Translations under genes and position numbers: made by a program
In this document: piece by piece, positions 1,475-5,595 of the stretch
Position numbering within the stretch: position 1 is the first letter of the stretch
Layout: the number at the start of each line of letters is the position of its first letter
From: an uncultured Clostridia bacterium
Lineage (GTDB): Bacteria; Bacillota; Clostridia; Oscillospirales; Ruminococcaceae
DNA length: 64,000 nt
Assembly: GCA_947626165.1 (NCBI GenBank)
Contig: CANQRG010000006.1
Span: forward strand, 1 to 64,000
Direction of reading: 5' to 3'
The notes under the pieces: model-generated
Database searches by the model: none
Told to the model about the DNA's origin: nothing
What the model saw: the letters and a program-made list of their open reading frames with translations, nothing else

Positions 1475-1687
1475 TTATGAGGCTGATAGACTATCTATAT
1501 CAATAAGATAGTCTATAGACTTGTGGAACATAGATGACATTTTCAAGCACTTACTTAATGGCAAGTCACCCTTTTCTTCCCAAGAATAAAACGTGTTTTT
1601 AGAAATGCCTAATTCTTTGCAAAATTGTTCAATCGTCCAACCTTTGCGAGAAATCTCTGCTCTAATATTATCAAACGATATTTTCAT
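1475..1687 (-). CDS. Cro-like XRE helix-turn-helix regulator
   Basis: 70 aa, essentially one Cro/C1-type helix-turn-helix domain (WTIEQFCKELGISKNTFYSWEEKGDLPL) followed by the usual hydrophobic dimer helix (SIDYLIDIDS). GGAGGCG precedes the ATG. It is the first gene of the leftward operon and is transcribed divergently from the larger XRE protein at 1880. This is the standard cI/cro arrangement of temperate phages and integrative elements. The four shared operators between them suggest both proteins read the same sites. Which one is the maintenance repressor is inferred from size only. Confidence 0.8.
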   Translation of the reverse strand: MKISFDNIRAEISRKGWTIEQFCKELGISKNTFYSWEEKGDLPLSKCLKMSSMFHKSIDYLIDIDSLSAS

Positions 1688-1705: not shown

Positions 1706-1771
1706 GCACTAAAAGTGTTGATTATGTAATTATTATAACACTTTTAGTGCAGTTGTCAACACTAAAGGTGC
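1706..1771. promoter_or_regulatory. Leftward early promoter with three repressor operators
   Basis: Minus-strand promoter TTGACA (1754-1759), 16-nt spacer, TATAAT (1732-1737). Three 13-bp palindromes of form (A/G)CACT-N3-(A/G)GTG(C/T) lie at 1706-1718, 1738-1750 and 1759-1771. The middle one fills the spacer, one overlaps the -35, and one lies just downstream of the -10. Occupancy would block the leftward operon. Confidence 0.8.
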
Positions 1772-1832: not shown

Positions 1833-1861
1833 TTGACTTTTTTACACTTTTTGTGTATGAT
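1833..1861 (+). promoter_or_regulatory. Promoter of the CI-like gene with fourth operator
   Basis: TTGACT (1833-1838), 17-nt spacer, TATGAT (1856-1861), 18 nt before the ATG of the XRE gene. The operator ACACTTTTTGTGT (1844-1856) lies within the spacer and overlaps the -10, so autoregulation is likely. It is the most diverged of the four sites in its centre. Confidence 0.75.
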
Positions 1862-1879: not shown

Positions 1880-2215
1880 ATGTGCGGAAGTAGATTAATA
1901 GCTTTGCGTAAAGCAAGAGGATTAAAAATTGAAGATGTTGCTTCTGAATTAGGAGTATCGGCTAGAGCTTATTATAGTTACGAAAATGATGAACGAGATC
2001 CCAGCACGCTTACTCTTGCGAAAATAGCAATTTTTTTTGGAGTGTCAGCTGATTATTTAATAGGTATTGAAAATAAAATAAGCCCATCACAAAATAGCGA
2101 TGAGCTTAATAATATTATGAATTTAGTTACAAAACTAGGAGACGAAGAACTGTTATTGCTTAGGGATTATCTGAAGTATCTGTATTGGAAGTTGGAACAA
2201 CGTAATCATAATTAG
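1880..2215 (+). CDS. CI-like XRE family repressor
   Basis: 111 aa. Residues ~5-62 form a Cro/C1 helix-turn-helix (LIALRKARGLKIEDVASELGVSARAYYSYENDERDPSTLTLAKIAIFFGVSADYLIG). The C-terminal ~45 residues are helical (LNNIMNLVTKLGDEELLLLRDYL) and probably oligomerise. There is no LexA-type peptidase domain, so induction, if any, must work through another route. GAGGTGATAAAATG gives the start. It is transcribed divergently from the Cro-like gene. The 3' end overlaps the convergent 48-aa ORF by 56 nt, so that ORF's message is antisense to the repressor tail. Confidence 0.8.
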   Translation: MCGSRLIALRKARGLKIEDVASELGVSARAYYSYENDERDPSTLTLAKIAIFFGVSADYLIGIENKISPSQNSDELNNIMNLVTKLGDEELLLLRDYLKYLYWKLEQRNHN

Positions 2216-2306
2216 ACTTTGCATTCTGATTATGTCTTAGTTCATTAATTGCTTTTATATAGTATTTTATTTCTTTAATAACAACTTTTCTTTCTTGTTT
2301 TGTCAT
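2160..2306 (-). CDS. 48-aa ORF under a LexA-box-like promoter
   Basis: Minus-strand ORF of 48 codons missed by the track (MTKQERKVVIKEIKYYIKAI... ending in an acidic, Ser/Thr-rich tail). AAGAAGG precedes the ATG by 8 nt. The first half is basic and helical, while the tail reads antisense through the last 56 nt of the CI-like gene. A near-perfect promoter lies 51 nt upstream. No family is recognised. It may be a small antirepressor-like or regulatory protein, or the transcript itself may act as antisense to the repressor mRNA. Confidence 0.5.
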   Translation of the reverse strand: MTKQERKVVIKEIKYYIKAINELRHNQNAKSNYDYVVPTSNTDTSDNP

Positions 2307-2334
2307 AACATTCAACCTTCTTTATAATATATTT

Positions 2335-2385
2335 AGAACGTATGTTCTTTAAGCATATTATAAAACATAAACATTCGTTTGTCAA
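2335..2385 (-). promoter_or_regulatory. Strong leftward promoter overlaid by a LexA/Cheo-box-like palindrome
   Basis: Minus strand: TTGACA (2380-2385), 17-nt spacer, TATAAT (2357-2362). AGAACGTATGTTCT (2335-2348) lies at the expected start point and contains GAAC-N4-GTTC, the core of the Gram-positive LexA (DinR) box. A second dyad, AAACATTCGTTT, lies in the spacer next to the -35. SOS control of the 48-aa ORF is an inference from the match. Confidence 0.6.
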
Positions 2386-2529: not shown

Positions 2530-3390
2530 ATGAAAAAATATTTTTTTACAAAACTGATGATATTTTTACTTGGAGTAATATCCTTGTTTTGGATATTGGG
2601 TAGTATAGCTATGTTTGCAAGTACAGATCAAACACTAAGCGATCGAATGGGTGGAGGAATTTTATTTCTTATATTAGCTATTATTTTTGTTATTTCATTC
2701 CTCATAACATTAAATAAGTATTGTAAAAACACTAAAGCAGATAGAGTATCTAAAAGAGAGCATCAGAAACTTATTCAAGAAGAACAAATGCAATTAAAAT
2801 ATAAGGAAATTTTAGATCATAAAGAAAGAATAAATAAACTTACTGTTGATAATTTAGTTAGAGAGAAACATATAGACAATATAAAAGAACAAGCTCAGAA
2901 ATCCATTGAAGTGGAATCAAATAAGGAATTAAAACCACAACGACAAATGCAAACAGAACAATTAAATCCTGCTGAAATTTTACTGTTAAAAATTGATTCT
3001 ATATCAACATCTGGAATTTACTTTGAAAACATCGCCTGTAGGTTGCTAAAAGCAAATGAATTTGAAAACATAAGAAATACACCTGCCTCCGGAGATTATG
3101 GAATTGATATTTTAGCTGAAAAAGATGGTATAAGTTATGCTATTCAGTGTAAATGCTATTCAAAGAACATCGGTAATAAAGCCGTTCAAGAAGCCTTTTC
3201 GGGCAGTCAGTTTTATAATTGTATGATTGCTGTGGTTTTTACAAATAGTTATTTTACAAAGGCAGCAATTGAAACTGCAAAAGCAACGAAAGTTCTTCTT
3301 TGGGACAGGGACAAACTTATGCAAATGATTAATTCTCTAAGCGATAGTGATTTAAAAGAATTAACAAATACAAATGATATTCAAATATAG
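2530..3390 (+). CDS. Membrane-anchored Mrr-type restriction endonuclease
   Basis: 286 aa. Two membrane spans (residues ~10-31 and ~42-61) are followed by a long coiled-coil-like charged region (~65-150) and a C-terminal Mrr_cat-like PD-(D/E)xK nuclease domain (~160-270). The likely active site is D193 in GDYGIDIL and Q206-K208 in AIQCKCY, the QxK variant typical of Mrr. Known Mrr-family enzymes cut modified or foreign DNA, and membrane-tethered versions occur in defence loci. TGGAGGAAG precedes the ATG. It sits as cargo between the repressor region and the integrase. No methylase is nearby, fitting a modification-dependent or abortive role, which is inference. Confidence 0.8.
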   Translation: MKKYFFTKLMIFLLGVISLFWILGSIAMFASTDQTLSDRMGGGILFLILAIIFVISFLITLNKYCKNTKADRVSKREHQKLIQEEQMQLKYKEILDHKERINKLTVDNLVREKHIDNIKEQAQKSIEVESNKELKPQRQMQTEQLNPAEILLLKIDSISTSGIYFENIACRLLKANEFENIRNTPASGDYGIDILAEKDGISYAIQCKCYSKNIGNKAVQEAFSGSQFYNCMIAVVFTNSYFTKAAIETAKATKVLLWDRDKLMQMINSLSDSDLKELTNTNDIQI

Positions 3391-4435: not shown

Positions 4436-5595
4436 ATGGGAAGAACTAAAAGCAGGGCTAACGGAGACGGCACTTTCTTTTATAATGAAACTAAAAAACT
4501 GTGGGTAGGACAGATAACTTTAGGCGTTCAGGATAACGGCAAGCTAAAAGAATTACTAAGTACGGTAAAACGAGAAAAGAAGTTAAAGAAAAAATTGAGG
4601 ATTATAAGTCAGAGCTTGGTGGTAGGGAAGTACCAAACAAGAACAGCATTACACTAGTTGAGTTAATGGAGCAGCTTGCCCAGCAGAGCTATGATCTAAA
4701 CGAAATATCAGAATCAACGTATTACCGAAAGAAAGAGACAATTAAGATATATAAAAAGCATAACATTGCAAATATGCCTATTCAAAAGCTCACTGAGCAG
4801 GACGTGCTAGAGTTTTATAAATCAATCACAAACTACTCAAATTCCGTAATAGGGAAGCTATGCGGTATTCTGAAGTCCACGTTAAAAGAAGCTATACGGC
4901 TGAGAATAATCAATATAAATGTTGCAGAATATGCCAAGCTGCCTAAGTCAGATAAACCTGACAAAAAGGTAGAAGCATTTACAATAGACGAGCAGAAAGA
5001 GCTGATTAAGGCATTAAACACAGGAAATGTTTTATACAAAAATCAGTTATTGCTTAGTATGTACACAGGAATGAGAATGGGCGAGATAAACGCTTTAACC
5101 TTTGATTGTATTGATTTAGATAACAACAAAATAGAAGTTAAGCGCACCATAGCACGCGGTGAGAAAGGAAAGCCAATGCTAGGTAAGACGGCTAAAACAA
5201 AAGCCGGGCAAAGAACTATAATGCTTAATGACATAGCTAAAAGAATTATAAAGGCGTCTCTATCTGAAGCAAAAGACAACAAAGACAACTTGATTTTTTT
5301 AGATAAAAGTGGTAAACTTGTAGCAACTGCACAAGTTAATAGTGAATTGAAAAGGCTTTGTCAAAAACATAATATCGGTAAGGGTTGGAACGTCAATCAA
5401 CATATGTTAAGGCACACTTATGCAACTAGGTGTATAGAAAGCGGAATGCCTGCTACTGTGTTGCAAAAGATACTAGGACACACCGATATAAGCACCACAT
5501 TAAATACATATTGCGATGTATTTGCAGAGTATGAAAGACAGAATGTAGATCAGAGTTATGACTACTTTGTAAAGTCTGGTCTTGTGTTGCAGTAG
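4436..5595 (+). pseudogene. int: Tyrosine integrase, interrupted by a one-base frameshift
   Basis: Two track ORFs (4436-4657 and 4666-5595) are one gene. The first reads the Arm-binding AP2-like domain (SRANGDGTFFYNETKKLWVG). It loses frame at a run of four A's (4546-4549), after which the -1 frame continues (KRITKYGKTRKEVKEKIEDYKSEL...) straight into the second ORF. A fifth A would restore a ~386-aa integrase. The catalytic half is intact: R in TGMRMGEI, K in TAKTKAGQR, HMLRHTYATR, LGHTDISTT and the terminal tyrosine region. It would integrate and excise the element. Mutation, sequencing error or -1 slippage on A-AAA are all possible. AGGAGG precedes the start. Confidence 0.8.

Follow-up and report, generated by a model that had tools for sequence, protein, structure and literature searches.

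Our analysis points to a 48-aa protein, encoded against the 3' end of a CI-like repressor gene and driven by a promoter with a LexA-type box, as an SOS-induced antirepressor that would provide the damage input of a prophage-like element whose repressor does not cleave itself, a reading to which we give a probability of roughly three in four. The stretch of DNA analysed (hereafter the window; 64,000 nucleotides, beginning at a contig end, G000:C6:1-64000) opens with this element, the right end of which occupies about the first 5.7 kb. The promoter, the identity of its operator, the open reading frame (ORF), selection on the ORF family, the terminator and the conservation of the layout all find support at the level of sequence, and we infer that the 48-aa protein contacts the repressor and thereby inactivates it. 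The features concerned are as follows.

1475..1687, minus strand: Cro-like helix-turn-helix (HTH) gene, 70 aa, divergent from the repressor gene
1688-1879: likely repressor operator region
1732..1759, minus strand: promoter of the Cro-like gene, TTGACA-N16-TATAAT
1833..1861, plus strand: likely promoter of the repressor gene, TTGACT-N17-TATGAT
1880..2215, plus strand: CI-like repressor P0002, 111 aa, HTH plus short helical tail (Pfam HTH_3, E 1.5e-15)
2069..2108, minus strand: intrinsic terminator for the antisense RNA, within codons of the repressor linker; 12-bp stem 2108-2079, then TTTTATTTTC
2160..2215: 56 nt shared, tail to tail, by the 48-aa ORF and the repressor ORF
2160..2306, minus strand: 48-aa ORF P0001, proposed SOS-induced antirepressor; 48 codons from the ATG at 2306 to a stop that ends at 2160
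2316..2322, minus strand: ribosome-binding site AAGAAGG, 9 nt ahead of the ATG, as read from the sequence
2335..2348, minus strand: putative LexA operator AGAACATACGTTCT over the start point, a perfect GAACRNRYGTTC match
2357..2385, minus strand: sigma-70 promoter of the SOS transcript, TTGACA-N17-TATAAT, 12/12 consensus (TTGACA 2385-2380, 17-nt spacer, TATAAT 2362-2357)
2530-3390: Mrr-type nuclease gene
4436-5595: tyrosine integrase gene, frame interrupted
First ~5.7 kb of the window: also an AbrB-like gene and small genes

Promoter, box and open reading frame

An earlier note on this DNA had described TTGACA-N17-TATAAT with GAAC-N4-GTTC over the start point and a 48-aa ORF antisense to the CI-like gene, and both descriptions hold, the hexamers matching consensus at 12/12 positions, the box being perfect and the ORF lying at 2306-2160 on the minus strand. 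The minus-strand promoter (2385-2357) carries GAACATACGTTC at the start point and, since the GAAC of the box begins 9 nt past TATAAT, the expected start point would be covered by the box. The same note had the transcript running 56 nt into the complement of the repressor gene; that figure is correct for the overlap of the two ORFs, whereas the predicted transcript (roughly 280 nt) would continue to the hairpin at 2108-2079 and so be antisense to the repressor gene over ~145 nt.

The box at 2348-2335 is the sole perfect GAAC-N4-GTTC within the 64-kb window, and a flexible search (CGAACNNNNGTTCG, at most two mismatches) returned 15 matches against 17.4 expected by chance, thus no excess. A first-order Markov model of the region puts the expected number per 6 kb at 0.05 for such boxes and at 0.01 for perfect promoters, and the combination of box and promoter arose in none of 3000 sequences simulated with a model of this kind. 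Only three GAACRNRYGTTC sites, the window box included, occur in the whole 1.84-Mb genome; one of the other two lies within coding sequence (L015), and the second separates a DUF896-type gene from a small operon that includes a sigma-like protein (L013). Perfect GAACRNRYGTTC sites within coding sequence (e.g. L015 and L040) were set aside and taken as chance. The protein itself, P0001, is highly charged and lacks any hydrophobic segment, properties on which a type I toxin-antitoxin system (a small hydrophobic toxin with an antisense RNA) was rejected. Pfam, PHROGs and NCBIfam contain nothing that it matches above cut-off, and it is therefore not filed in any known antirepressor family.

The repressor and the surrounding element

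Pfam finds an HTH domain only in P0002, with no peptidase or self-cleavage domain, and a lexA profile that matched other loci of the genome did not match the repressor locus (1880-2215); the earlier statement that this 111-aa repressor has no self-cleavage domain is thus borne out. Its structure model, predicted without an alignment, is all-helical and of a confidence too low for fold searches (mean pLDDT 58). The best NCBIfam match of P0002 is the RstR family (NF041951; residues 3-107 of 111), at 63.2 bits and hence under the curated cut-off of 80 bits, and membership of that family was rejected.

The Mrr-type restriction nuclease gene (2530-3390) adjoins the lysogeny module. The nuclease has a hydrophobic N-terminus, and Mrr-like genes also stand beside a homologous module (L036) and beside the repressor of another relative (L037). 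The interruption of the integrase frame is seen relative to a 92%-identical copy on contig C4, and as a result the element may be defective, or the interruption may be an assembly error. Four related elements in the same genome (L009, L010, L011 and L012, on G000 contigs C4, C13, C5 and C10) have flanking genes in common with the window element, and their repressor modules differ, being S24-type in C5 and C13, an HTH protein plus an ImmA-like protease in C10, and an HTH protein without S24 in C4. This looks like an exchange of induction modules within one genome. The S24-type repressors and the ImmA-like protease of these siblings are alternative damage inputs at the same place, which we counted in favour of the antirepressor model.

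Conservation in related elements

An element in G006 that is 97% identical keeps the whole layout, with both promoter hexamers unchanged and the box present, and its 48-aa ORF differs from that of G000 by one synonymous and zero non-synonymous changes. Homologues of the repressor (40-43% identical) occur in other genera of the family (G177, G243, G269 and G295), and three of the four (G177, G243 and G269) are accompanied by a convergent, boxed small-ORF module; these three modules (L035, L036 and L038) fall in two other genera, and L036 was also found in an IMG/VR viral contig (L065). The module is absent at the G295 homologue (L037) and at a viral relative with an arrangement like that of L037 (L066). 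L035 and L036 each have TTGACA and two perfect boxes, one abutting TATAAT and the other near the start point, and L038 has a box with one mismatch. The small ORFs of L035, L036 and L038 (41, 42 and 40 aa, respectively) are convergent with the repressor gene and overlap its 3' end, and each is preceded by AAGGAG or AAAGGAGG as a ribosome-binding site, positioned as in the window. An antisense hairpin followed by a T-run lies within the codons for the linker that joins HTH and tail in 4/4 modules (-17.8 to -26.4 kcal/mol, z -4.5 to -6.8; for the window terminator, -17.8 kcal/mol and z -6.8). The earlier note had named absence of the box from related elements as evidence against its proposal and had suggested searching for the small protein beside other CI-like genes; the box is present in the G006 element and in the three homologous modules, and beside the homologous repressor genes lie the syntenic relatives L035, L036 and L038.

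Comparison of the small ORFs of L035 and L036 over the 26 codons outside the overlap gave pS 0.94 and pN 0.05, indicating that the small ORF family is under purifying selection at the codon level. The window protein is most similar to that of L035 (38% identity in this best pair, shuffle P 3e-4), and a profile of the other three small proteins barely beats shuffles when set against it, so that its homology to the syntenic relatives is argued largely from position. A peptide-pattern search of viral contigs for the 48-aa protein and the repressor found no relatives, the A2 profile had no matches in viral contigs, and the L036 small protein had none in phage records. The small-protein profile was run over about 400 genomes of the family and 394 of the order; among the matches inspected, only the five known members carry a box, and the weaker ones lay in coiled-coil-like stretches of larger proteins or in phage ORFs that lack a box, the order level contributing a single match (L279). 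Short phage ORFs at L091, L092 and L070 share the N-terminal pattern of L035 and L036 (xxKLIxxIIxKFxRLxxIRxxK); they sit in phage operons that have no SOS boxes, some of them in tandem.

Convergent modules in viral contigs

Scans of viral contigs for sigma-70 promoters that carry GAAC-N4-GTTC either within the spacer or at the start of transcription gave at least 107-108 distinct promoter-plus-box sites (for the third scan, among the matches listed). At 24 of the 107-108 distinct sites among the matches listed, an HTH repressor gene converges on the promoter, its 3' end lying 20-350 nt downstream, compared with 1.25% of random positions on the same contigs (binomial P about 4e-23 for the 24 sites). 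The association is also present at third-scan sites that had not been used in building the HTH model (12/40 among the matches listed, P 3e-13) and with an HTH model made from the window repressor family alone (16/107 among the matches listed, P 1.5e-16), and an HTH gene in the same direction occurs at only 2 sites among the matches listed. With the box reversed as a control, viral contigs yielded 8 matches, none of them with a convergent HTH gene, versus 47 for the true box. The small ORFs of these parallel modules are mostly 30-58 aa long, and ten small proteins (nine from modules and one unboxed relative) belong to no curated Pfam or PHROGs family.

The scans also brought out two recurring protein types. 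SOS-boxed genes at L117, L128, L206, L214, L222, L243 and L251 encode 32-45-aa hairpin-like proteins (DYKKAIIDLLNKATDEDVLELIYRFCRKLIG type), convergent with HTH repressors of the 'WLRTGEGEMF' type, and those members that were scanned have no Pfam or PHROGs family. At L099, L100, L119, L126, L129 and L134, SOS-boxed phage promoters drive an acidic family of 108-127 aa (MNIFSLLGKI...) away from HTH genes.

Some of the small proteins resemble the C-terminus of the repressor they face. Among 25 modules, small proteins score higher against the C-terminus of their own repressor than in swapped pairs (permutation P 2e-4), the clearest cases being L240 (YEMLTNEEKEVVIREIEDLIAARS / YDLLTPDEKKVVDSLIEQLLSLRS), L122 (YTSEDVRLAERIAALTEDDR / YTDEDLRAAKMINSLPEEDR) and L252. 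The signal derives chiefly from one group of twelve modules and is weak once the three best pairs are removed (P 0.035), and the group of short hairpin-like proteins has no signal of C-terminal resemblance (P 0.19). The window pair ranks third of 25 with a shuffle P of 0.14, and a profile comparison of small protein with repressor C-terminus found no match for the window family; mimicry of the P0002 C-terminus is not detectable there, the alignment of IKYYIKAINELRHN with LKYLYWKLEQRNHN being attractive and not significant. In TP901-1 an all-helical C-terminal region mediates dimerisation of the repressor (PMC11149083), which makes capture of such helices by a small protein a reasonable candidate route.

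These comparisons bear on whether the place of the 48-aa gene beside the repressor is incidental, as it would be if the protein were an SOS-induced accessory acting on the host itself or on replication of the phage. Similar N-terminal sequences do occur in phage operons that lack boxes (L091, L092), and some SOS-boxed phage promoters from these scans stand ahead of genes for unrelated proteins, but a convergent position by an HTH repressor gene is found far above chance and in many unrelated families, and several of the small proteins copy the repressor C-terminus, so we regard an accessory role as unlikely.

The active product could instead be the RNA, an SOS-induced antisense transcript that would lower repressor synthesis either by pairing with the repressor mRNA at its 3' end or by a collision with transcription of the repressor gene. 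The ~145 nt of antisense coverage and a strong terminator at one shared place in 4/4 homologues would fit such a role. Against this, the ORF shows codon-level selection and has ribosome-binding sites, and a halt to synthesis would by itself leave the repressor already present to be diluted slowly. Moreover, the two genes of L117, L128 and L178 do not overlap and have a terminator-like hairpin between them, so these modules do not in general involve antisense pairing. An RNA product therefore appears improbable. The earlier note had offered an antirepressor protein or an antisense RNA, and it is the protein that is favoured by codon selection, by a ribosome-binding site in every homologue and by the parallel modules, several of which lack the overlap.

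Identity of the operator

LexA operators of clostridia have been described as GAAC-N4-GTTT/C (PMC4234289). In a survey of 15 genomes of the genus, GAAC-N4-GTTC outside genes was found in two settings, namely upstream of DinB-type polymerase genes and in an operon divergent from a DUF896 gene (ten genomes). The dinB-type promoters of the genus carry up to three copies of the box, and that of the host reads AAACATTTGTTC-TTGACA-...AAACAAATGTTC-TATAAT-N9-GAACTTATGTTC, in which the first two boxes overlap or abut the promoter hexamers and the third lies 9 nt past TATAAT, the same spacing as the window box. The DUF896 family includes YnzC, part of an SOS operon in Bacillus. The L013 locus of the host and nine syntenic loci (L039, L045, L047, L049, L051, L054, L059, L062 and L064) constitute a conserved LexA-boxed chromosomal operon in the genus, which encodes a 76-78-aa protein (MENLFRAYIKTADALKKQ...) and then a sigma-like HTH protein and is divergent from the DUF896-type gene. 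The host genome encodes both LexA and RecA; no GAAC-N4-GTTC box is visible ahead of host lexA or recA (L016, L019), which is unusual for a Firmicute SOS circuit.

Because the motif stands on dinB-type promoters, including that of the host with its equal 9-nt spacing, control of the window promoter by LexA is very likely. The identity of the window site as a LexA box is thus well supported on comparative grounds, and LexA would be expected to bind it. When the earlier note predicted SOS control from the box, the prediction was without support; it now has that of a genus-wide motif on dinB-type and DUF896-operon promoters. That the box is instead an operator for the element's own HTH proteins is highly improbable, for although both HTH genes adjoin the box, the control region at 1688-1879 carries different, TGCACTAAAAGTG-like repeats and no GAAC-N4-GTTC, the box is the only such site in the window, and the motif lies with matching spacing on chromosomal dinB-type promoters.

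Proposed mechanism and comparison with known systems

We propose that, during normal growth, host LexA would occupy the box at 2335-2348 and keep the minus-strand promoter shut, so that the HTH-only repressor (1880-2215) maintains lysogeny. Upon DNA damage LexA would be cleaved and a transcript of roughly 280 nt would be made, ending at the terminator within the repressor gene. Its translation would give the 48-aa protein, which would bind the neighbouring repressor, most likely via the helical C-terminal part of the latter, and remove it from its operators, allowing the Cro-like gene and the lytic genes to be expressed. Over the final ~145 nt of the repressor gene, antisense pairing and the converging transcription may help to stop repressor synthesis, a contribution that is probably secondary. 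On the other side of the balance we set the lack of a match between the 48-aa protein and any known antirepressor family, its modest resemblance to the syntenic relatives, the undetectable C-terminal mimicry in the window family, the failure to see a box ahead of host lexA or recA, and the interrupted integrase frame.

The closest parallel is with the Gifsy prophages of Salmonella, which possess the LexA-controlled small antirepressors GfoA, GftA and GfhA (PMC3121763). The window element shares with them a short non-cleavable repressor and a small protein made from a LexA-boxed promoter, Gifsy induction proceeding via LexA cleavage, but the Gifsy antirepressor unit lies far from the immunity region, in 'two spatially separated modules' (PMC3121763), whereas the window gene is convergent with the repressor gene and overlaps it, its terminator lies inside the repressor codons and its sequence differs. 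In TF-smORF modules, including Qtip, small proteins without recognisable domains inactivate the cI repressor; there a phage transcription factor is the activator, the response is SOS-independent and the arrangement divergent (PMC10432266), while the window gene is convergent and host LexA is its predicted regulator. Assignment of the window to the TF-smORF modules (Silpe et al., 2023) was rejected on the convergent orientation of its small gene and the presence of the LexA box.

The CI protein of TP901-1 likewise combines an HTH with an all-helical C-terminal dimerisation region and has no self-cleavage, and its RecA-dependent induction occurs 'through unknown mechanisms' (PMC11149083). Its MOR, an HTH protein, is encoded divergently from cI, in contrast to the convergent small gene of the window, and no convergent small gene is annotated downstream of TP901-1 cI, where the genes run in the direction of cI. 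RstR of CTXphi and RS1 is also countered by a small antirepressor (RstC), and P0002 falls below the cut-off of the RstR family. ImmR/ImmA of ICEBs1-type elements provides an SOS-linked input for a non-cleaving HTH repressor, via a protease and not a small protein. Coliphage 186 has in Tum a LexA-controlled antirepressor of a non-cleaved repressor; Tum is larger than the window protein, its gene has another position and its LexA box is of the Gram-negative kind. LexA-controlled antirepressors such as those of Gifsy and 186 are therefore known, and what is new here is a gene encoded against that of the repressor, a terminator within the repressor gene, and the sequence. In the open-access papers searched, we came across no account of small LexA-boxed genes that converge on a repressor gene.

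Significance

Many Gram-positive temperate phages have short repressors that are unable to cleave themselves. For the phages that carry it, the module would be a simple answer, a LexA-controlled microprotein encoded against the repressor gene. As the layout occurs at about a fifth of the SOS-type phage promoters among the matches listed, it is predictable from sequence. We tentatively suggest, as something that is quite possible, that these modules represent a widespread and unrecognised phage switch in bacteria with the GAAC-N4-GTTC LexA box, in which unrelated proteins of 30-58 aa, encoded tail-to-tail with HTH-only repressors under LexA, disarm the repressor by copying or capturing its C-terminal dimerisation helices. 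If true, such a class would account for the sensing of DNA damage by many non-cleavable repressors. The apparent mimics of the repressor C-terminus seen in several families would amount to dominant-negative microproteins of natural origin. The switch may also bear on the response of gut prophages to DNA-damaging drugs.
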